Shown: positions 15,923 to 58,180 of the stretch, piece by piece | Position numbering within the stretch: position 1 is the stretch's first letter | How the letters are laid out: each line of letters opens with the position of its first letter | Source: Bacteroidota bacterium | Lineage (GTDB): Bacteria > Bacteroidota > Ignavibacteria > Kryptoniales > JAKASW01 | Direction: 5' to 3' | Length of the DNA: 64,000 nucleotides | Assembly (NCBI GenBank): GCA_021825585.1 | Contig: JAKAGT010000013.1 | Span: 62,001 to 126,000, forward strand | Made by a program: the position numbers and the translations under genes | The notes under the pieces: generated by a model | Told to the model about the DNA's origin: nothing | What the model saw: the letters and a program-made list of their open reading frames with translations, nothing else | Database searches by the model: none

Positions 15923-16325
15923 GACTAATATATAACCCCTGCGGCTGCCGGAGAGTTCAATGCCGCGGATGAAAAAAGATGCGTGCGCTCTCTTCAACCC
16001 GAGCATCAGTGGCGGGATCCATTTCAGCCGGAGGAGATTTGTCATCACCGGAGGCACACCCTGTTCCACCCGGCCTGCAGAGCAAAGGACTTCCACGCCA
16101 GGGAACCATCCAAGGACATGCAAAGGCGCAAATTCCTGCCCGCAATACTCATTCCCTGAGAGATCCTTGGCCTTTTTGATTTTAAGAAGAGTGACGGATA
16201 TATTCTGACAGGAAAGAATAGTCAGGGCTAAGCATTAAAGGATGTCAGGCGAGATGGTGATAGTAAAATCCGGGGCGATTTCACTCGTGGGAGAGAATTA
16301 CCAAAGTCGGTTGAAAACCAGCTTA
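15923..16325. other. Intergenic region without recognisable feature
   Basis: Between the barrel protein start and the tracrRNA terminator I find short overlapping open frames only and no convincing gene, repeat or promoter. Confidence 0.35.
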
Positions 16326-16326
16326 A

Positions 16327-16462
16327 AATAAAAATGCCCATTAAGTACGAGCGGGCACCAATAAAGAAGCGCCACAGTAGTTTGCGGCGCTCGAGAGCAA
16401 ATCGCTCTGCGGCTTATAGCCTTGTTGTGATTTGCACAAGCAATATAATGGATTTTCATACT
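16327..16462 (-). ncRNA. tracrRNA of the type II-C CRISPR system
   Basis: On the minus strand an anti-repeat begins near 16462 with GAAAATCC (pairs with GGATTTTC of the repeat), then a bulge, then GCAAATCACAAC (16424-16435), which pairs perfectly with GTTGTGATTTGC of the repeat. The tail folds into GGCT-ATA-AGCC, AGAGC-GATTT-GCTCT and AGCGCC...GGCGCT. It ends in a terminator, TGCCC...GGGCA followed by TTTTTATTTT (16327-16358). The orientation means the array should be read on the minus strand so that crRNAs carry spacer then GTTGTG repeat. The RNA is divergent from cas9, with its start at or just before the cas9 ATG. Confidence 0.85.
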
Positions 16463-16481: not shown

Positions 16482-19400
16482 ATGAAAGTATTAGGTCTCG
16501 ATTTAGGAACAAATTCAATCGGATGGGCCATCAGGGACACTGCTACTCCGGCCGACAATCAGATTATTGACTACGGGGTCACTGTTTTTAAAAAGGGTGT
16601 GGGCAATGGAGAATCCGGTGAATTCTCCCTGGCAGCGGAAAGAAGGAAGAATAGGAGCAAAAGAAGGTTATACAATGCCAAGCGATACCGCAAATGGGAA
16701 TTGCTCAGAGTCTTGATAAAGCATGGAATGTGTCCGTTGAGCATAGAGGGACTCAGATTGTGGAGCGTTGGTAATTGGCAGGTAGTTGACGGGAAGCGAA
16801 AGAATCTCGGACGCATTTATCCATTAAGCAATGTGGACTTCATGCGCTGGCTGGCATTGGCCCCTGAATATTTTGGTGACAAGGGTAAATCCGGAAATGG
16901 GAAGCCTATAAGAAGAAGTCCCTACGATCTGCGTTGTGAGTTGATTGAAGCTTTTGAAAAGGACGACCAGAAAAGAAATTATAAGATAGGAAGAGCATTG
17001 TACCATCTGGCCCAAAGAAGAGGCTTCAAAACAAGTCGTAAGAGTGGGAAAAGCAGATATGAAGCAGAGGCAAGCCAGACACTGAGCAAATTCTACCTGA
17101 AATATCCGGGAAGGAAGGATTGGCCCATGGCCAAAGTGTTCAGCTATCTTCAGTCTGATGAATGTGACGATAACGAACTTAAGCTCACGAGAATAAGGAA
17201 GGAAACCGGGATACAAAAGAGGGACGATTACCTAAAGGAATTCGATGCGATCTGCGAGAGACAGAACTTGCCTGAGGAGCTGAAAGCAAAGCTCCATGAT
17301 GCGATCTATTTCGTACGAGGACCACGGGGTCAAAAAGGGTTGGTTGGCAAATGCACGCTGGAAAAAAGGAAACCGCGTATTCCCATCAGCCATCCCGCTT
17401 TTGAAGAATTCAGAGCACTGTCTTTCATCAACAACATCCAGTGGAGGCAGACAGGGAACAAAGAAGCCTTTGGGCAGATCCCGATGGAGCTTAGGAAGAG
17501 GATCCTTGAAGACGTATTCTTCAAAACAAAAAAGAAATCAGGGTTCGTGGATGAACGAGCCTTCTTTAAGTTTGATGAGATCGTTGACGACTTTTCTGAA
17601 AATGGTAAATGGGAATTCAATTACAGGAACAAACCTAATGTTTCAACTTGCCCAGTGATTGCTGGCCTGATGAACACTTTCAAGGATGAATGGAAAGACA
17701 GATTCATTCAAGACAAAGATAGGTATGGAATAAACTGGGACGGCCTCACACTCAGCTACAAATTAAGGTACACAAACAGAAACGAAGCAAGAGATGGATT
17801 GAAGAGGAAAGGACAGGGCTATGTCTGCAAAAAGGCGGGTGAGCAGAGAACACTAGACCACGAGGGCATTTGGCATTTGCTATTCAACTCTCTTCAAACG
17901 AAAGACAAACCGGAAGCCCTGGCGGCATTCTGCGAAGAGGTTCTTGGATGGAAAGATGAGAATAAAGTACGTCAGTTTGCTGAAATCAATGTACAGCAGG
18001 GATACGGCTCTCTGAGCCGAAAGGCCATCGTCAAGATCATTCCGTATCTACAGGAAGGACATATCTATTCAGAGGCGGTTTCTTTTGCGAATCTTTCCAA
18101 AGTAATGGGAGAGAAAGAGTTCTCTGCTAACAAGGGAGCAATTGAAGATTGCATTACCGATGTCATCAAAAGGACCAACAATGAAAAACAAAAATTGAAT
18201 ATCGTCAACAGTTTGATTCAAAACTACTTTGGTGAAATCGAGACGATTAAAGCAGAAGGGCTGGACGAACAAATCAAAGAATCTGCAAAGGCTGATGTTG
18301 AGAGAAAGCTGAAGAATTACTTCGGCGAAAGGAATTGGAATGACAAATCGGAAGCAGATAGAAGAGAATATTCCGATTTTGTCCTTAACAAATACGTTTC
18401 ATTTCTCGACCGCAAGCAGCAGCCAAAAGAGAAAGCATCCTCATCCCAAGAAAAGAACCCAGAGATTGATTATTACAAAATTCCCCGTCTTGACGAAGCG
18501 ATCAAGCAGCTTTTGAGGGACAAATTTTCCGTCGGCGAAAAAGGGCTCACGCATCTCTACCATCCTTCGGACATCCAGATCTATCCCCCATCGAGAAATG
18601 ATAGGCTCGGCAATCCAGAACCGCCAAGCAAAGGATGGAAGAACCCGATGGCAATGCGGACCATGCACGAGTTAAGAAATCTCATGAACTATTTATTGGA
18701 AGAGGGCAAAATTGACCAAGAAACAAAGATAGTTGTTGAGATGGCAAGGGAATTGAACGATACGAACAAGCGCTGGGCAATCCAGAATTATCAACGGCGC
18801 CGAGAGGAGGAAAACATAGAATTTGCTAAGGCGATATTAGGCGTTGCAAAAGACAAGTATCCGGGCCTCAATGAAAATGACGCAGATAACATAGACAAAG
18901 TGCGTTTATGGTGGGAACAGTTGGAGGATGGAGAAGAGGTATATAAACAGATAAAAGCATTGAAAGAAGATGTCCGGAAGTATCGCCTGTGGAAAGAGCA
19001 ACAATGTCAATGTATTTATACCGGCAAGTTCATCAGCCTGACAGATTTGTTCGATGGGACAAGGACGCAGTTTGCACATACATTCCAACGAAGCGAGTCG
19101 TTTGACAACTCGCTCGCGAATCTGACCGTAAGCGATGCCTACTACAACGTTAATATTCAGAGGAATCGGATTCCGACTCAGCTGGAAAACTACAAGGTCG
19201 ATTGGAAAGACCCTGTAAGTGGGAATACATACACAGCGATCGAGCCCCGCATCATGAAGTGGATCGAGAAAAGGGATTCGCTGCAAGAAAGGATTGAAGA
19301 TAATAAGGCTCAAACACAAAGAGTGGCTAGAAGCGGAGATACCGAAGGAAAGAATGAATTAATCAAGCGCAGGCGATACCTTGAACTTGAATTTGAATAC

Positions 19401-20768
19401 TGGGACAAGAAAGTGAGAACGTTCACGCTTGAGGACATTCCCAACTTCTGGAAACACAGTCAACTTGTGGACACTCAAATAATCACAAAATATGCACGCG
19501 CGTATATGAAGTCGTTGTTCCACAAAGTCGACGTGCAAAAAGGAATAATTACTTCCGAGTTCAAGAAAATCTACGGTATAATGGGTGATGAGAAGAAGGA
19601 TCGTAGCCGCCACAGTCATCACGCCATGGATGCGGCCGTCCTTACTCTTATTCCAGGTTCAGCAAAGAGGGAGGAGATACTGAGGCAATACTACCGTTCC
19701 CTGGATAAAGGAATAAGATTCCACTCAAAGCCATACCTATCATTCGATATTACTCACGTGACATCCATCGATCAGAACGTGTTGATCAATCATGTGAATC
19801 GATATAAAACACTTGTCGCGACATACAAGAAGATTCGCAAACGAGGAAAACCCCAGCAGTCGGAAAACGGTGCAGATTTGGTTATGCAGGGGGACAGTAT
19901 TCGCGGCCAATTACACAAAGAGACTTTCTTAGGGGCGATTAAAGTACCGGAGAGAAATAGCCACGGATATGCGGTTAAGGAAAATGGCCAGTACCTGGTT
20001 CAGAAAAACAAGACGACAGAGGAAGATGAAATATGGCTTGTTGTAAGAAAACCGATAGAGGATGCTCAGCTAGATAAGATCGTCGACCCGTTATTGAGAG
20101 AACGAATAAGAGAACAAATGAATCGAGGCGTCAAGATGGAACAAGTCGTTGATTTCAACGGGAAAAGGATCAGGCACGTTCGCTGTAAGGTCTCACTGCC
20201 ATCATATGAAAAGTCACTAAGAATTAAGCCCCACTTGCACCTGTCAGAAAAAACACACAAACAGTATTACAGAACCGACAATTCTGAAAATTATCTATGC
20301 ATCTACTATGAGGGGACCGACGAAAGAGGAAGACCAACGAACGCGTTCAGGTTCGTTAGTCTATTTGAGTATTCGAAACTCAAAGACAAGGATATTATGG
20401 CAAATCTCGAATACTCAAGGCTCGTGAAGCTCGCCAGGAGAAAGGAAGTGCTCCTCACCGCAAAACATATTTTCAAGGTCGGCAACAAAGTAATTTTATA
20501 TCGGGATTCCGCTGCCGAAATCCAGAAGAACGGGATTCCTATCGAACATGTTTTTCGTGTCTATAAGTTCAATAACTCGGGAGCAGACTACATTTTCCTC
20601 CAAAACGTCATCGAGGCAAGGGAAAACGACGAGTTGGGCGATGGGGAAACACGCTTTAACCCGGACAAGTACCAACCGAGATTGAAACTAACCGCGCAAA
20701 ACCTAAGATGTTTAGTGGAACACACACATTTTGAGGTTAAGCCGGATGGCGAGATAATCCTCAAATGA
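16482..20768 (+). CDS. cas9: Cas9, type II-C RNA-guided DNA endonuclease
   Basis: A 1428-residue protein. RuvC-I is GLDLGTNSIGWA (Asp7). The arginine-rich bridge helix is RRKNRSKRRLYNAKRYRKW. RuvC-II is KIVVEMARELN (Glu753) and RuvC-III is HSHHAMDAAV (His1047, Asp1050). The HNH domain has His866, Asn880 and Asn889 with the same spacing as SpCas9 His840/Asn854/Asn863. The acidic residue normally just before the catalytic His (Asp839 in SpCas9) is Ala865 (QFAHTFQRS). AAGGAGAAAGCC precedes the ATG. The large size and Bacteroidetes-like repeat fit II-C. Its stop overlaps a truncated cas1 start as ATGA. Confidence 0.97.
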   Translation: MKVLGLDLGTNSIGWAIRDTATPADNQIIDYGVTVFKKGVGNGESGEFSLAAERRKNRSKRRLYNAKRYRKWELLRVLIKHGMCPLSIEGLRLWSVGNWQVVDGKRKNLGRIYPLSNVDFMRWLALAPEYFGDKGKSGNGKPIRRSPYDLRCELIEAFEKDDQKRNYKIGRALYHLAQRRGFKTSRKSGKSRYEAEASQTLSKFYLKYPGRKDWPMAKVFSYLQSDECDDNELKLTRIRKETGIQKRDDYLKEFDAICERQNLPEELKAKLHDAIYFVRGPRGQKGLVGKCTLEKRKPRIPISHPAFEEFRALSFINNIQWRQTGNKEAFGQIPMELRKRILEDVFFKTKKKSGFVDERAFFKFDEIVDDFSENGKWEFNYRNKPNVSTCPVIAGLMNTFKDEWKDRFIQDKDRYGINWDGLTLSYKLRYTNRNEARDGLKRKGQGYVCKKAGEQRTLDHEGIWHLLFNSLQTKDKPEALAAFCEEVLGWKDENKVRQFAEINVQQGYGSLSRKAIVKIIPYLQEGHIYSEAVSFANLSKVMGEKEFSANKGAIEDCITDVIKRTNNEKQKLNIVNSLIQNYFGEIETIKAEGLDEQIKESAKADVERKLKNYFGERNWNDKSEADRREYSDFVLNKYVSFLDRKQQPKEKASSSQEKNPEIDYYKIPRLDEAIKQLLRDKFSVGEKGLTHLYHPSDIQIYPPSRNDRLGNPEPPSKGWKNPMAMRTMHELRNLMNYLLEEGKIDQETKIVVEMARELNDTNKRWAIQNYQRRREEENIEFAKAILGVAKDKYPGLNENDADNIDKVRLWWEQLEDGEEVYKQIKALKEDVRKYRLWKEQQCQCIYTGKFISLTDLFDGTRTQFAHTFQRSESFDNSLANLTVSDAYYNVNIQRNRIPTQLENYKVDWKDPVSGNTYTAIEPRIMKWIEKRDSLQERIEDNKAQTQRVARSGDTEGKNELIKRRRYLELEFEYWDKKVRTFTLEDIPNFWKHSQLVDTQIITKYARAYMKSLFHKVDVQKGIITSEFKKIYGIMGDEKKDRSRHSHHAMDAAVLTLIPGSAKREEILRQYYRSLDKGIRFHSKPYLSFDITHVTSIDQNVLINHVNRYKTLVATYKKIRKRGKPQQSENGADLVMQGDSIRGQLHKETFLGAIKVPERNSHGYAVKENGQYLVQKNKTTEEDEIWLVVRKPIEDAQLDKIVDPLLRERIREQMNRGVKMEQVVDFNGKRIRHVRCKVSLPSYEKSLRIKPHLHLSEKTHKQYYRTDNSENYLCIYYEGTDERGRPTNAFRFVSLFEYSKLKDKDIMANLEYSRLVKLARRKEVLLTAKHIFKVGNKVILYRDSAAEIQKNGIPIEHVFRVYKFNNSGADYIFLQNVIEARENDELGDGETRFNPDKYQPRLKLTAQNLRCLVEHTHFEVKPDGEIILK

Positions 20769-20854
20769 TCAAGCGTACTATCGTCATAAGTCAACGTTCA
20801 TATATCTTCCACCAAGAAGCAACCCTTGAAGCGTTCGTGTCGAAATGGAAATAG
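20765..20854 (+). pseudogene. Truncated second cas1 5' end
   Basis: An ATG overlapping the cas9 stop (ATGA) opens a 29-codon frame. Its first 18 codons (MIKRTIVISQRSYIFHQE) match the start of the intact cas1 at 21640 (MIKRTIVISRKSYISHKD), with 42 of 54 bases identical by my alignment. The match then breaks into the 63-nt palindrome at 20821, whose codons end the frame at TAG. The ATGA overlap is the arrangement expected for cas9-cas1 in an intact operon, so this is probably the original cas1 start. Confidence 0.8.
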
Positions 20855-20883
20855 CTGTAATTAATAGAAACGCTTCAAGGGTT
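20821..20883 (+). repeat. 63-nt palindromic element, copy 1 (cas9/RAYT junction)
   Basis: Perfect 15-bp arms AACCCTTGAAGCGTT and AACGCTTCAAGGGTT enclose 33 nt. It is nearly identical to copy 2 beyond the RAYT gene, as expected for REP elements flanking a REP-associated transposase. Confidence 0.9.
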
Positions 20884-20893
20884 TGACGCGAAA

Positions 20894-21547
20894 ATGGCAA
20901 AGCCGCATCCGCCTCTGGAACCGGAACAATTTTACCACGTGTTCAATCACGCTAACGGCAATGACAACATCTTCCGAGCAGATAGAAACTACCGCTTCTT
21001 CCTGCGATTGTACTTGACGCATATTTCCGGCATCGTGAATACTTTAGCTTATTGCCTGATGCCGAACCATTTTCATTTTGTTATTCAAATGAAATCAGAA
21101 GCGGAACTGCGGAGCTTTTATTCAAAGAAGATTGCAACCCTTGAGGCGTCTTTAACGCTTCAAGGGTTGTGTCGCTTAAACAGCCAGCAGTTTTCAAATC
21201 TCTTCAACTCCTATGCTCAAGCATTTAACAAGGTCTATAATCGCCGCGGTGGATTATTTATCAGCAACTTCAAACGGAAGAAGGTTACTTCCAACGAATA
21301 TCTGTTGAACTTGATCCATTACGTCCATAACAACCCTGTCCACCATGGATTTGTCGAGACGGTGGATGATTGGAAGTATTCATCGTACCAGGCGCTATTT
21401 TCAGAGAAGAGAACCATGCTTGCGAGAAGTGAAACGTTGGAACTGTTTGGTGGAGCGGATGAATGCAGGGAATTTCATCAGAAAGAAATCAACAAGAAAT
21501 TTCTAATATCGGAAGGAGAAACCCTTGAAGCGTTCGTGTCGAATTGA
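20894..21547 (+). CDS. REP-associated tyrosine transposase (RAYT, Y1 HUH family)
   Basis: A 217-residue Y1 transposase of the IS200-like RAYT branch. The HUH motif is His59-Phe-His61 (MPNHFHFVIQ), and the nucleophile is probably Tyr143 (NLIHYVHNNPVHHG). These enzymes cut and join single-stranded DNA at REP palindromes. It sits between cas9 and cas1 on the same strand and is flanked by 63-nt palindromes. The second palindrome overlaps its last codons (TLEAFVSN). Residues 81-92 (ATLEASLTLQGL) are encoded by another palindrome, so the gene has itself been invaded in frame or carries its own recognition hairpin. Confidence 0.88.
   Translation: MAKPHPPLEPEQFYHVFNHANGNDNIFRADRNYRFFLRLYLTHISGIVNTLAYCLMPNHFHFVIQMKSEAELRSFYSKKIATLEASLTLQGLCRLNSQQFSNLFNSYAQAFNKVYNRRGGLFISNFKRKKVTSNEYLLNLIHYVHNNPVHHGFVETVDDWKYSSYQALFSEKRTMLARSETLELFGGADECREFHQKEINKKFLISEGETLEAFVSN
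21136..21168 (+). repeat. Short palindrome inside the RAYT coding region
   Basis: AACCCTTGAGGCGT and AACGCTTCAAGGGTT, separated by four bases, form the same arms as the 63-nt elements with one mismatch. The segment is read in frame through RAYT. Confidence 0.75.
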
Positions 21548-21582
21548 AATTAGCTGTAATTAATGGAAACGCTTCAAGGGTT
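21520..21582 (+). repeat. 63-nt palindromic element, copy 2 (RAYT/cas1 junction)
   Basis: Same 15-bp arms as copy 1 and the same length, with only a few internal differences. It provides the last eight codons and the stop of RAYT. A degenerate half-copy with a worn right arm (AAAGCTTCAGGGGTT) follows at about 21584-21631, just before cas1. Confidence 0.9.
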
Positions 21583-21639
21583 GGTATCGAATTGAAATTA
21601 ACTATAAATATTAGAAAAGCTTCAGGGGTTTAATTCGAT

Positions 21640-22590
21640 ATGATCAAACGTACCATCGTCATAAGCCGGAAGTCATATATTTCCCACAAAGACGAGCAGC
21701 TGCTTATCAAGCAGGAGGATGATGACCCAAGTGTTCCTATAGAAGACATAGGAGTAGTAATTCTTGAGGACCACCAGTCAATCATAACGGTCTCAGCGTT
21801 GAATGCCCTGATGGAGAACAACAGCGTTGTGATCGGATGCGACGCGAAGCATTTGCCGAACGCTATCATGTATCCGATGTCCTCGAATACACTTCACACG
21901 GCGGTGCTTAAGACACAGATGAATGCATCCGCCCCCTTGAGAAAGCAGCTCTGGCAGCAGACCATCAAAGCAAAGCTGATCAACCAGGCGGCTGTACTTG
22001 GCTCAAGAGGAGTGAATGCAAAACCTTTGGAACTCTGGGCAAAGAAAGTACGCTCGGGCGATCAAGCGAATCTCGAAGGAAGAGGGGCGGCGTATTACTG
22101 GAAGAATGTTTTTAATGCGCGAACACTTGAAGGGTTTTCTAAATTGGGCACCAAAATCGACTTCTCGCAGCAACCCTTCAGGGGTTTCATCCGTGACCCG
22201 GAAGGAGACGGGCCGAACAGTGCGCTGAACTATGGGTATGCTATTGTCCGAGCGGCAATGGCAAGAGCTATCGTAGGCTCGGGACTGCATCCTTCGATAG
22301 GACTCCACCACAAAAACCAGTACAACGCGTTTTGCCTTGCCGACGACCTGATGGAACCGTACAGGCCGTTTGTCGATCTGATTGTCCTTGATATTTGTGA
22401 AGAGCAGGGAATAGAAATCAGCCTTACGACAGAAAACAAGAAGCGGCTTCTATCGATCCTTTCAGCCGATACGTTCGTTAGTGATGAACGAAAGCCGCTG
22501 ATGCTTTCATTGACGGCGACAACGGCTTCGCTGGTAAGGTGTTTTGCTGGAGAGACGAGGAAAATTGTATATCCGGAGGTTAACCCTTGA
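21640..22590 (+). CDS. cas1: Cas1 integrase
   Basis: A 316-residue Cas1. The characteristic core is present: GRGAAYYWKNVF (catalytic Glu in LEGRGAAYYW), NYGYAIVRAAMARAIVGSGL, HPSIGLHHKNQYNAFCLADD and DLMEPYRPFVD, which holds the remaining metal ligands. Together with Cas2 it inserts new spacers. Between KNVF and FIRDPEG there are about 22 extra residues (162-182 and neighbours) that coincide with a palindrome at 22122-22186. The final residues and stop lie within the next 63-nt palindrome. It starts after the degenerate palindrome that follows RAYT. Confidence 0.95.
   Translation: MIKRTIVISRKSYISHKDEQLLIKQEDDDPSVPIEDIGVVILEDHQSIITVSALNALMENNSVVIGCDAKHLPNAIMYPMSSNTLHTAVLKTQMNASAPLRKQLWQQTIKAKLINQAAVLGSRGVNAKPLELWAKKVRSGDQANLEGRGAAYYWKNVFNARTLEGFSKLGTKIDFSQQPFRGFIRDPEGDGPNSALNYGYAIVRAAMARAIVGSGLHPSIGLHHKNQYNAFCLADDLMEPYRPFVDLIVLDICEEQGIEISLTTENKKRLLSILSADTFVSDERKPLMLSLTATTASLVRCFAGETRKIVYPEVNP
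22122..22186 (+). repeat. Palindromic element inside cas1
   Basis: Arms AACACTTGAAGGGTT and AACCCTTCAGGGGTT, 35 nt apart, match the arms of the 63-nt family. The centre is not clearly related. It encodes the stretch TLEGFSKLGTKIDFSQQPFR in frame, at a point where Cas1 relatives have a short loop. Confidence 0.65.
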
Positions 22591-22644
22591 AGGGTTCGTG
22601 TCCAATTGAAGATAACTGTAATTGATAAAAACCCTTCAAGGGTT
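22582..22644 (+). repeat. 63-nt palindromic element, copy 3 (cas1/cas2 junction)
   Basis: Arms AACCCTTGAAGGGTT and AACCCTTCAAGGGTT, total length again 63 nt. The left arm contains the cas1 stop codon. The arms carry a matched pair of changes (GCG to GGG) relative to copies 1 and 2, which keeps the stem paired. Confidence 0.88.
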
Positions 22645-22647
22645 TAA

Positions 22648-22983
<336 letters not shown>

Positions 22984-22996
22984 AGTCCCAAAACAG

Positions 22997-23038
22997 AAAA
23001 GCGTCCGCCTGAGTCTTGACAAAGGCGGGCGCTTTTTT
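22997..23038 (+). terminator. Terminator between cas2 and the CRISPR array
   Basis: The stem AAAAGCGTCCGCCT / AGGCGGGCGCTTTT with one mismatched base runs into a T6 tail. It separates cas operon transcripts from the array, consistent with array transcription from the other strand. Confidence 0.88.
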
Positions 23039-23655
23039 CCTTGCCGAACTTTCAGCTAAGTCAATGCTTTTCAATGAGTTGTTCTATGGTGCACTGAAAG
23101 AACATTACTCAAAGAAAAATCCGAAAGCAAATCACAACACGACCTGAAGAGGGGCGCTGACTGGGACAACTGAAAGAACATTACTCAAAGAAAAATCCGA
23201 AAGCAAATCACAACGTGCATCTCCTGGACCATCTGGCCCACGCCACTGAAAGAACATTACTCAAAGAAAAATCCGAAAGCAAATCACAACCCGGAGCGAA
23301 CGCTCTCCTGATGAACGGCAACTGAAAGAACATTACTCAAAGAAAAATCCGAAAGCAAATCACAACGGCATCCCGCTTCCGGAGGAAGGCGAAGAGACTG
23401 AAAGAACATTACTCAAAGAAAAATCCGAAAGCAAATCACAACGATCCCAGGGAAATAGAAAAGAAGAGACTGACTGAAAGAACATTACTCAAAGAAAAAT
23501 CCGAAAGCAAATCACAACTATCCTTTATCGCTCAACAAATACCCTCTCACTGAAAGAACATTACTCAAAGAAAAATCCGAAAGCAAATCACAACTTTACG
23601 CGTCGGGTTCTCTTTCGCGTTCCAACTGAAAGAACATTACTCAAAGAAAAATCCG

Positions 23656-23708
23656 TCCCGTTCCGACATCATATCATATAAGATGATACGGGATGCCGCA
23701 AGGCGGCA
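23656..23708. repeat. 53-nt double-hairpin element in CRISPR repeat 8
   Basis: It is inserted between ATCCG and AAAGC of the repeat. One hairpin has outer stem TCCCGT/ACGGGA with inner ATCAT/ATGAT. The second is TGCCGC-AAG-GCGGCA. Removing the 53 nt restores a perfect repeat. Confidence 0.93.
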
Positions 23709-23937
23709 AAAGCAAATCACAACTATCATCAGCTTTTGCATCGGTTCCGAGGTACTGAAAGAACATTACTCAAAGAAAAATCCGAAAGCAAATCACAACT
23801 AAATATGCGTTCCCTGCGCTCGAAGTGTGGACTGAAAGAACATTACTCAAAGAACAATCCGAAAGCAAACTACAACGTTCAGCACCTTCTCTTTGTCGTA
23901 TTTTAACCTGAAAGAACATTACTCAAAGAACAATCCG

Positions 23938-23990
23938 TCCCGTTCCGACATCATATCATATAAGATGATACGGGATGCCGCAAGGCGGCA
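23938..23990. repeat. 53-nt double-hairpin element in CRISPR repeat 11
   Basis: Base-for-base identical to the insertion in repeat 8 and at the same repeat position, although the host repeat half differs at two bases (CCTG start, ACAATCC). Confidence 0.93.
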
Positions 23991-24053
23991 AAAGCAAATC
24001 ACAACACGCATAGAACGGCCCACGGACGAGCAGCCACTGAAAGGACAATACTC

Positions 24054-24083
24054 TCCGCCAGAGGTGGATGCGCCTTTGGCGCA
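24054..24083. repeat. About 30-nt double-hairpin element in CRISPR repeat 12
   Basis: Two adjacent short hairpins, TCCGCC-AGA-GGTGGA and TGCGCC-TTT-GGCGCA, interrupt the repeat after ATACTC. It is a miniature version of the 53-nt elements and lies at a different site in the repeat. Confidence 0.75.
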
Positions 24084-24149
24084 AGAGAAAAACTTGAAAG
24101 CAAACTGGAACAGAAAGTCAAAACCAAATTGGAAAAACCATTACTCAAA

Positions 24150-24265
24150 TGATACCTTGCGCCATCCCGCATATCCTTATTCAATATTAATAACTGAGCG
24201 GGAGAACAATCTGCCCCGCTCGGACATCAAATTTAATATATGATGCGGGGTCCCGTAAGGCGGGA
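24150..24265. repeat. Two double-hairpin elements in CRISPR repeat 13
   Basis: The first (24150-24203) reads CCTTGCGCCATCCCG...CGGGA, in the orientation seen in the IS21 genes. A 10-nt piece of repeat (GAACAATCTG) separates it from the second (24214-24265), which has CCCCGC/GCGGGG plus TCCCG-TAAGG-CGGGA and occupies the same site as the insertions in repeats 8 and 11. Confidence 0.8.
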
Positions 24266-24284
24266 AAAGCAAATCACAACTCAG

Positions 24285-25322
24285 TCATGCTTCTCCCCCG
24301 ACATGCTTAACGATAAACTCCGTGTTTTCGTTTGCATTCTTTACGACGATAGTTTTATCAGGATATTTCTTCCTCCAAACGCGAAAGACTTCATCGGCAA
24401 ATGCCTGTCCGACCAATTCGACCCCTTCAAAATCCAGGATGATTTTTGAAAACTTCTCCAAGCCGGTGAGGATTCGGCGGGCCTGAGATCGGGAGACATA
24501 TCCGGTCGAGGGTTTGTACAGTCTTACCGATACCTCAGTTGCGCCGAATTCATACTCTTCACCCGTGAAACGCGAGAACACACTCGCCAATTTCCTCCGC
24601 GAATTAAGCTGTATGGAAAACACCACCTCAGTGCCTTTGAAGTCTTTGACATCGCGCACAAATATATCGTCGATCAGGTTGTTGAAGATCACTTTCTTCC
24701 TGTCACTCTTGATGACGAGTATATCGGCCACCTTTGAAGTAAAAAAAATCCCCTCCCCCGAATGATAATCCGGGGCGGTCGTTTGTTTACCCTTCAGAAG
24801 ATCCTGTATTGCCTCGAAGGCAGAATTGAGGTGTTTCTTCTCCATAATGTTCCGGTAAATCCCGATACCACGATCCAGAACCGTAAAGTTCAACGAGGAT
24901 TCATCACGGCGTATCTTCACGACTATCTTCTCGGATCTGGAGTGTTCAATGGCATTGTTGAGCATTTCCGTGAAGCCATACTCTATTATTTGTCGGACAT
25001 TATTCGGAAGCGAATGAAAGATTCCCGTCGATGTCCTCGCTTCCTCTAACACGATATCCTCTTGTAATCCGACATTTGTAAGTATACGATGAAACGCAAG
25101 CTGCTCCAGCTTAACCCTGGCGTGGATCTTCTTGTCCACCGGCAGATATCGCGCCTGATTTGCCTTGCCTACAAGTACAAGTTTTCCCTCCTGCTGCATT
25201 TGCTGCAGGACTTTATTGACATAGGAACGTGAGTACCCGGTCGCCTGAATTATGGTCGAGCGCCTGAATTCACCTTTTTTCTTGAGGATGGCGATTATGA
25301 CTTCTCTTATGTCTTTTTTCAT
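24285..25322 (-). CDS. HTH - histidine-kinase-like ATPase - DUF4325 regulator
   Basis: A 345-residue three-part protein. Residues 1-60 form a winged helix-turn-helix (STIIQATGYSRSYVNKVLQQ). Residues 90-235 form a GHKL ATPase with N-box EMLNNAIEHS (119-128), G1 box DRGIG (150-154) and GEGIFF (189-194), without the histidine-phosphotransfer helix. Residues 260-345 match DUF4325, a STAS-like domain (SRSQARRILTGLEKFSKIIL). It resembles anti-sigma-kinase/STAS switching fused to a DNA-binding domain. Its stop lies 4 bp from the last CRISPR repeat. A 12-bp direct repeat GAGTGGTCAACT occurs twice upstream (about 25325 and 25383), a possible operator. Confidence 0.85.
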   Translation of the reverse strand: MKKDIREVIIAILKKKGEFRRSTIIQATGYSRSYVNKVLQQMQQEGKLVLVGKANQARYLPVDKKIHARVKLEQLAFHRILTNVGLQEDIVLEEARTSTGIFHSLPNNVRQIIEYGFTEMLNNAIEHSRSEKIVVKIRRDESSLNFTVLDRGIGIYRNIMEKKHLNSAFEAIQDLLKGKQTTAPDYHSGEGIFFTSKVADILVIKSDRKKVIFNNLIDDIFVRDVKDFKGTEVVFSIQLNSRRKLASVFSRFTGEEYEFGATEVSVRLYKPSTGYVSRSQARRILTGLEKFSKIILDFEGVELVGQAFADEVFRVWRKKYPDKTIVVKNANENTEFIVKHVGGEA

Positions 25323-55757: not shown

Positions 55758-57349
55758 ATGGATATTCGAGAGATAGTCAGACGTTACAAGGACGGTCAGA
55801 CAATCAGGTCTATCGCAAGTACGATGGGGTACGACAGAAAAACCGTGAGGAAGTACATAAGTGCGTTACGGGCAAAGGGAATACTCGACAGCGACACGAT
55901 GGTCGACACCAAGGATCTGGCCGAGATGTTCAAAGACGATGCATCGCAGCACGGACGGCCATCGGAGAAACAGGGCCTGCTTGAGCCGTACCTCGAAGAG
56001 CTGAAGGGGCTTATCGACAAACCCTCCGGTATGAAGCCGAAGACAGCATTCAAAGTTCTGTGTGGAAGACACGACCTCATCGGGAAAGTGAGCTACACGA
56101 GCTTCAAACGGTTCGTGAGGAGTAATCAGGTTGTTTTGAATGTAAGGGAGATAACCTGCCGCATAGAGACCGACCCCGGCGAAGAGATGCAGGTTGATTA
56201 CTTCAAGGCGGGGATGCTGTACGATCCGATTGAAGGGAGAATGAAAACGGTCTACGGTTTTATTGCGACGCTCTCGTTCAGTCGACATAAATTTGTCGAG
56301 TGGCGCCTTGCGCCATGCCGCATACCCATTTCAATAATTGGGCGGCATTCGTTTTCCGCCAGAACCAACAAAGCTTCGTATCCTCCCATGTAAGAGCGTT
56401 TAATTACTTCGGCGGCGTACCCAAGAGAATAATCCTCGATAATCTGAAGCCAGGAGTGATAAGGCCCGATCTCTACGATCCGCAGTTCAACCGGGCCTAT
56501 CGTGAGATGGCCGAGCATTACAACACATTCCTTGACCCGGCACGTGTAAGAAGTCCAAAGGACAAGGGGAAAGTTGAACGTGATGTCCAAACGGCCCGGG
56601 AGAAGTTCAAAGAACTTACAGCCTTATATCCCGGGATCACCCCCGCTGAACTTAACAAGAGAACCCAGGAGTGGCTCCGTGATGGCTACGGAATGACAAA
56701 ATACGGAACTACTTACCGGATGCCTTATCCGGTTTTCATGGGAGAAGAACAGCCTCAGCTTATCCCGCTTCCTCGCGACGAGTTCGAGCCGGCCTTCTGG
56801 AAAGAGGCAACGGTTCATCCGGACTGCTACATCCAGGTAAAGAAAAAGAGCTATTCCGTCCCGTTCCAGTACGTAGGGAAAAAGGTCTGGGTCAAGGTAT
56901 CGAACAATATCGTACATATCTACTACAACGAAGCGCTTATCAAAGAACACCTTGTCCTCACCAAAGGATACCGGAAGACCGATTTGATCGACTTTCCAGA
57001 TAATCTCGCAGCGGCCGTAGACAAGGGGTTGCCACGTCATCTTCAGATCGAAGCAGGCAAGATCGGACCTCAGTTCCGGAGCCTTATAAAATCCGTGCTG
57101 AACCCAAATGCGTTCTTAAATCTGAGAAGAGCTCAGGGCATCGTCTCCGTTGCGAAGAGCTACCCAACCGAGCTCGTCGAGCAGGTGGCAGCTACTCTGA
57201 TTACCCAACCGTTCCAGTTCACTCCTAAGTACTTCAAAGCTTCGATCGAAAAGCTCGTAGAACTTGAATATCAATCGCAGGAAATACCGCTCTCTGAGGA
57301 AACTAGAACCTTCGTCAGGGACCCGGAATACTTCAACCACACATCATAA
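55758..57349 (+). pseudogene. istA: istA transposase, interrupted by a 47-nt palindromic element
   Basis: The start MDIREIVRRYKDGQTIRSIA with its helix-turn-helix is followed by the DDE domain (EMQVDYFKAGMLYD). At 56301-56350 the frame is broken: the first part ends FSRHKFVEW and the second resumes VFRQNQQSFVSSHVRAFNYF in a frame shifted by two. Removing 47 nt restores a continuous IstA of about 510 residues. Glu of the DDE triad is in the second half (VRSPKDKGKVERDVQ). Confidence 0.92.
56304..56350. repeat. 47-nt double-hairpin element in istA
   Basis: Core GGCGC-CTT-GCGCC followed by GCCGC...GCGGC. Exact edges are ambiguous by about 3 nt. Same family as the elements in the CRISPR repeats (opposite orientation to those in repeats 8 and 11). 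Confidence 0.88.
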
Positions 57350-57362
57350 GGGGAACAGCTTT

Positions 57363-58180
57363 ATGTCCACAAACTCCGCCCAGCTCATCACGCAGCTTAA
57401 ATCTCTCAAGCTATCGGGAATGGCCGACACGCTTGACATCAGGCTCATGGAGGCTCAGAACAACAGCTTAAGCTTCTCTGAGTTCCTCTCCATGGTCATT
57501 ACCGACGAACTCCAGACCAGATCCAACAGAAAGCTTCAGCGTCTCTTGAGCCATGCTCATGCCGATCCAAGCAAGACACTGGAGACCTTCGACTTCTCGT
57601 TCAATCCGTCCATCAATGCAACCGTGATACGCGAGCTGTCCACCTGCCGCTTCATCGAGAAGGGCGAAAACATCTTCTTCCTCGGTCCAACCGGCACGGG
57701 AAAGACTCACCTGGCGAAAGCCATAGCTCACATGGCCTGCCGGAAGCACCTCAACGTCGAGTACTTCAACTTCTGAGCGCCTTGCGCCATCCCGACATAT
57801 AAATAATTTTGACGGGACAGGAACTGTTCCGGCTTCTCTCTCGGGCTGATCTCGTTAACTCTCTCGATAAGAAGCTGAGGCCGCTCATCAGAACAGACCT
57901 ACTTATCCTCGATGACTTTGCCTTCAAGAAGCTCGATCAGCAGTCCGCCGAATACCTGTACGCCATCGTAGATGCCAGGTACCCGACGAAGTCGACAATC
58001 CTAACCAGCAATCGGGCCATTACCGACTGGCATGCGATCTTCCCGGATCCCGTCATGGCCAACGCACTCATGGACCGGCTTGCTCACAATGCTCATCAGA
58101 TATCAATCAAAGGAGAATCGTACAGAAAAAAGCTTTCACCGAAATCCCAGAATGTTGACTCTAAGAAGCCGGTGAAGTAA
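57363..58180 (+). pseudogene. istB: istB ATPase, interrupted by a 44-nt palindromic element
   Basis: The first part carries the Walker A motif (LGPTGTGKTHLAKAIAH) and stops at TGA 57774-57776, which belongs to the inserted element. The second part, from CAG 57818, continues QELFRLLSRADLVNSLDKKL with Walker B (LLILDDFAF) in a frame shifted by two. Removing 44 nt restores FNF-QELF and a normal IstB of about 258 residues. Confidence 0.92.
57774..57817. repeat. 44-nt double-hairpin element in istB
   Basis: GCGC-CTT-GCGC followed by TCCCG...CGGGA. The small-hairpin text GCGCCTTGCGCCAT is shared with the istA copy. Confidence 0.88.

Follow-up and report, generated by a model that had tools for sequence, protein, structure and literature searches.

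The CRISPR-Cas locus and its array

The 64,000-nt stretch of DNA analysed here (the window) carries a type II CRISPR-Cas locus composed of cas9, a RAYT-like gene, cas1, cas2 and a repeat array (Table 1). The operon holds cas9, cas1 and cas2 without any further cas gene, interrupted by the RAYT gene, and is accompanied by a tracrRNA candidate and long repeats; by gene content and these features, the array would be classed as II-C-like. The tracrRNA candidate, upstream of cas9, displays further hairpins beyond its anti-repeat and a terminator-like end with a T run. As the anti-repeat is complementary to the repeat and lies on the minus strand, we assigned the crRNA sense to that strand. The Rfam scan of the window returned two tRNAs only.

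Table 1. Features of the CRISPR-Cas locus and of the interrupted repeats (positions within the window)
Feature	Position	Strand	Remarks
tracrRNA candidate	16325-16460	-	anti-repeat GCAAATCACAAC (16424-16435) + GAAAATCC
cas9, 1428 aa	16482-20768	+	
RAYT-like Y1 transposase gene inside the cas operon	20894-21547	+	weighed as mobiliser candidate
cas1 (type II; TIGR03639)	21640-22590	+	
cas2	22654-22983	+	
Leader end adjoining cas2	23070-23092	+	
CRISPR array, 13 repeats of 46 nt	23093-24280	crRNA sense - (5' GTTGTGATTTGC...)	sense from tracrRNA anti-repeat
53-nt A-type double-hairpin element in repeat 8 (23625-23723)	23656-23708	+	
53-nt A-type element in repeat 11 (23907-24005)	23938-23990	+	same site as in repeat 8
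30-nt small double-hairpin element in repeat 12 (24036-24111)	24054-24083	.	between ACTC and AGAG
54-nt B-type element, inverted, in repeat 13 (24129-24280)	24150-24203	-	between CAAA and GAACAATC
52-nt diverged A-type element in repeat 13	24214-24265	+	between AATCTG and AAAGC

A near-identical leader sequence (AATGAGTTGTTCTATGATGCA) stands upstream of the array of another genome of the same genus (G009), and from the sequence we place the leader on the cas2 side of the array. Once the inserts are removed, no difference is left among repeats 1-9, 2-3 positions are changed in repeats 10-11, and repeats 12-13 are degenerate, so that degeneracy rises across repeats 10-13. Together with the position of the leader, this gradient indicates that repeats 10-13 are the oldest units of the array. 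The spacers measure 30-31 nt after insert removal, with a shortened one before repeat 13, and the exact 22-nt cores of three spacers had no match in viral contigs. Among the named genomes, a single Cas9 relative was found, 58% identical and encoded in a Flavobacteriales MAG, whose array, truncated where the contig stops, displays four visible repeats, all uninterrupted. On the side away from the leader, 4 bp separate the array from the end of a minus-strand gene (24285-25322), which encodes HATPase and DUF4325 (STAS-like) domains and has the same reading direction as the crRNAs.

Five exact insertions in six repeats

Five insertions fall within six repeats, all in the half of the array distant from the leader. 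The elements of repeats 8 and 11 are identical (53/53) and both sit between ATCCG and AAAGC, as stated in a preliminary description of this DNA. The same description gave repeat 13 one element at that shared site plus another, which is right as to position, but the copy at the shared site is a diverged one of 52 nt and does not have the same sequence; the smaller element that it placed elsewhere in repeat 12 is indeed present. Removing the inserts restores 46 nt in every interrupted repeat, and target-site duplications are absent at all insertions of the array. Each insertion was therefore exact and left no duplication.

The assembly is a draft of 88 contigs, which leaves room for an assembly artefact; set against the exact 46-nt and 30-nt arithmetic, host repeats that differ in sequence and flanking spacers that are unique, such an artefact is exceedingly improbable. 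Note that the difference between host repeats, also pointed out previously, applies to repeat 11, with 2-3 changed positions, but not to repeat 8, which is the plain consensus once its insert is removed.

The inserts belong to dispersed families of double hairpins

Matches to the 53-nt element occur at many genomic positions, all of one design, in which TCCCG...CGGGA and then TGCCGC-AAG-GCGGCA form two hairpins in direct succession. In an alignment of 17 copies, 95.5% of the pair cells are paired and 5 of the 12 pairs have changed on both sides; none of 500 shuffles matched this alignment on the main measures. A covariance model built from the 17 copies, and thus partly from copies that it then finds, gave 57 matches in this genome at E <= 1 and 34 at E <= 2.5e-5, from which we count about 34 confident copies. 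With the model at E <= 1, copies are present in all 13 genomes of the genus (9-80 each). Outside the genus, 50 of 56 genomes of the class have no copy at E <= 1e-5, and five of the six positive ones represent a single other genus. Chance is excluded as the source of this structure and distribution. The 30-nt insert of repeat 12 comes from another small family of this genome, also made up of paired hairpins. The 3' half of the element had no exact match in viral contigs. Two more copies of the double-hairpin family lie in the window (56301-56347 and 57774-57817, both on the minus strand), the latter at an insertion site common to copies on other contigs.

Within the genus, B-type elements also occur inside the loop of C-type elements, at a single point between ATTTA and TATGT and without duplication; C-type loops with and without B-type elements thus represent natural filled and empty sites. 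Since the inserts belong to dispersed, compensatorily varying double-hairpin families, they are resident mobile elements that invaded the array and not products of CRISPR adaptation, and we regard it as very likely that they are inserted REP-like elements. Copying of a whole unit during spacer acquisition, already judged insufficient in the preliminary description, does not account for the inserts.

The array is strongly enriched in these elements. Four matches to the covariance model within 1.2 kb are far above the genome average (Poisson P ~1e-9), a value that becomes ~1e-4 if repeats 8 and 11 are counted as one event and one eighth of the genome accepts insertions. No insert was found in ~220 repeats from eight other arrays of the genus, including 34 repeats from the same genome and 29 from a related type II array, so that among the arrays seen the invasion is peculiar to this one. 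The search for another strain whose version of this array lacks the inserts found none.

Each element carries two G+C-rich hairpins, and a T-rich stretch follows the insert of repeat 8 on the crRNA strand, features that would suit hairpins recruited as regulators of the older part of the array, whether as processing sites, terminators or attenuators. However, the terminator scan gave 1 against a mean of 2.3 in shuffled sequence, i.e. no excess, and the elements are dispersed at unrelated places and absent from the other arrays of the genus, which makes a regulatory recruitment very improbable.

One base of the repeat was struck more than once

The A-type copy of repeat 13 occupies the same site as the elements of repeats 8 and 11. 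Its similarity to the genomic copies L077, L049 and L080 is 0.80-0.83, higher than that to the repeat 8/11 copy, which stays below 0.75; judging from these similarities, the shared base of the repeat was thus struck at least twice, independently. Alternatively, a single insertion could have been copied among repeats by gene conversion, template switching or unequal recombination, the shared site then reflecting copying. This would fit the full identity of the elements in repeats 8 and 11, since the nearest other copy compared is only 89% identical. However, simple unequal crossing over should have left duplicated or missing spacers, which are not seen; a conversion tract must begin no more than 6 bp from the insert, because repeat 11 keeps a C there and repeat 8 keeps an A; and copying leaves unexplained why repeat 13 has a diverged element at this very base. 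We therefore find copying a doubtful explanation of the shared site, for which site-specific insertion is favoured. Both processes had been offered in the preliminary description: the first is favoured by the independent insertion at that base in repeat 13, and gene conversion is possible for the repeat 8/11 pair only. This pair would probably stem from a short-range second jump or from a short gene conversion between repeats.

The flanks of genomic copies display a preference that holds in leave-one-out analysis, the native sites of types A-C falling in the best 1-9% (median). By this preference, the B-type insertion of repeat 13 is the best of 70 repeat sites, and the A-type sites of the array take ranks 1-3 of 70, though these ranks are for the strand opposite to the element orientation: the A-type copies of the array are oriented against the flank preference of their genomic counterparts. 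The ranking of the A-type sites may lend site preference moderate weight only, because the preferred sites are simply T-rich and the corresponding repeat strand is T-rich too.

The shared site lies in an internal loop of the predicted crRNA:tracrRNA duplex

In the predicted crRNA:tracrRNA duplex, an unpaired internal loop lies between a spacer-adjacent 12-bp helix and an upper helix, and it is into this loop that the shared insertion point falls. In cofolding, repeat 8 retains its two helices while the inserted hairpins loop out, and repeat 11 keeps the 12-bp helix. When an insertion was simulated at every position of the repeat, few interior sites retained 29/29 predicted intermolecular pairs, the observed one among them. 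With the insertion placed in the internal loop and both helices still able to fold, the interrupted repeats 8 and 11 are predicted to give extended crRNAs still able to pair with the tracrRNA, and silencing of the neighbouring spacers is not expected. The earlier suggestion that an added stem within the tracrRNA-pairing region could silence spacers finds no support in these in silico predictions. On the same models, we see about even chances that the inserts are near-neutral passengers. A 53-nt double hairpin tolerated in this internal loop, as predicted, would be a natural counterpart of engineered guide-RNA extensions.

The retention of all 29 predicted pairs at one of few interior positions is also what selection would leave behind if only insertions in the internal loop were tolerated and others in the repeats were lost. 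Yet insertions after repeat position 12 all keep the spacer-adjacent 12-bp helix, so that many other sites should be tolerated, and repeats 12 and 13 do carry inserts at other positions. Selection as the cause of the shared site is accordingly unlikely.

A proposed route into the array

We propose that non-autonomous REP-like double hairpins of 30-54 nt, resident in the genome and the genus, transposed into the array after its older units were in place, and that they would have moved via single-stranded DNA through an HUH (Y1/RAYT-type) transposase acting in trans. We lean slightly towards the HUH transposase step, which is suggested by each element being a hairpin pair with exact ends that left no duplication. 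The elements display several traits of HUH elements, namely subterminal hairpins, no target duplication and preferred flanks, the last being opposed by the A-type orientation in the array.

Within ~1.5 kb of the RAYT/Y1 loci examined in 13 genomes, no full-score element was found, and the sole match there is a marginal, 20-bit one by one Y1 gene. Genome G002 has ~10 element copies, yet no RAYT or Y1 gene was detected in it. Across the genus, the number of RAYT genes is weakly correlated with the number of element copies (Spearman 0.60, P 0.03, n = 13). It is improbable, in our estimate, that the repeats are a preferred landing site to whose loop region a Y1/RAYT protein, possibly the one of the cas operon, steers REP-like elements.

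The RAYT of the cas operon was rejected as the mobiliser, its own palindrome (AACCCTTGAAGCG...CGCTTCAAGGGTT) being unrelated to the inserts. This palindrome has four copies in the genome, all within this cas operon. The cas-operon palindromes at 20818-20883, 21517-21630 and 22582-22644 stop right before the RAYT gene, cas1 and cas2 begin, and two other genomes of the genus have related palindromes, in one of them beside a RAYT.

Relation to known elements

IS elements and MITEs are documented in CRISPR direct repeats, with 59 transposon-broken CRISPRs, among them one with a 180-bp MITE in a Microcystis repeat (PMC4852346). There, as here, resident mobile DNA interrupts repeats. Those examples have target duplications of 4-5 bp, in contrast to the duplication-free elements of 30-54 nt described here, which also differ in making five insertions in six repeats and in striking one base repeatedly. 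A MITE of DDE transposons was rejected as the identity of the elements, which lack the combination of terminal inverted repeats and target-site duplication; no duplication is found in the array or at nested copies.

REP elements and their RAYT (PMC3733652) are closer: both sets are small, dispersed, structured palindromes of limited phylogenetic range, and the elements here are dispersed multicopy palindromes in the REP manner. They differ from REP in having two hairpins per unit, no GTAG or CGTC tag at one end (copies start with TCCCG/TGCCG and end with GGCGGCA) and a location away from RAYT genes (GTAG type), bar the one marginal match by a Y1 gene. No conserved tag was found in the flanks of the element copies. 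The rickettsial RPE-4 and RPE-6 (PMC3733652) are likewise small palindromes inside functional sequences with no dedicated transposase known; host and end tag differ. The cyanobacterial small dispersed repeat SDR5, located precisely within HIP1 (as cited in PMC4390886), is likewise a tiny mobile element that inserts precisely at a preferred site; the host is different, and the likeness is one of size and insertion behaviour.

In the open-licence literature, we found no report linking REP/RAYT elements with insertion in CRISPR repeats, nor any of repeated insertion at one base of a CRISPR repeat. The array is an unusual example of a known process, the entry of mobile DNA into CRISPR arrays, and not a new immune mechanism. 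How very small mobile elements transpose is poorly understood, and the array, which offers many identical, time-ordered copies of one target, serves as a natural experiment on where such elements end, which sites they choose and how they insert without duplication.

History of the cas operon

The 5' end of cas1 (MIKRTIVIS...) is present a second time immediately downstream of cas9, ahead of the RAYT gene (20766-20830, compared with 21640-21700), the complete cas1 being downstream of the RAYT gene. From its sequence and position, this partial copy looks like a scar left when the RAYT inserted or when cas9 was replaced. In genome G009 (L195:5951-12850, compared with 16482-24280 of the window), cas1 (66% identity), the leader and the 46-nt repeat are related and Cas9 is very different (~1090 aa, 23% identity); it appears that cas9 was swapped and the cas1-cas2-array part retained. 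Elsewhere, another RAYT adjoins a putative Cas7-like gene, recognised by eye (L031, G000 contig C53), and RAYTs near cas1 are also present, by coordinates, in the genus genomes G006 (C28), G009 (C30) and G010 (C2).
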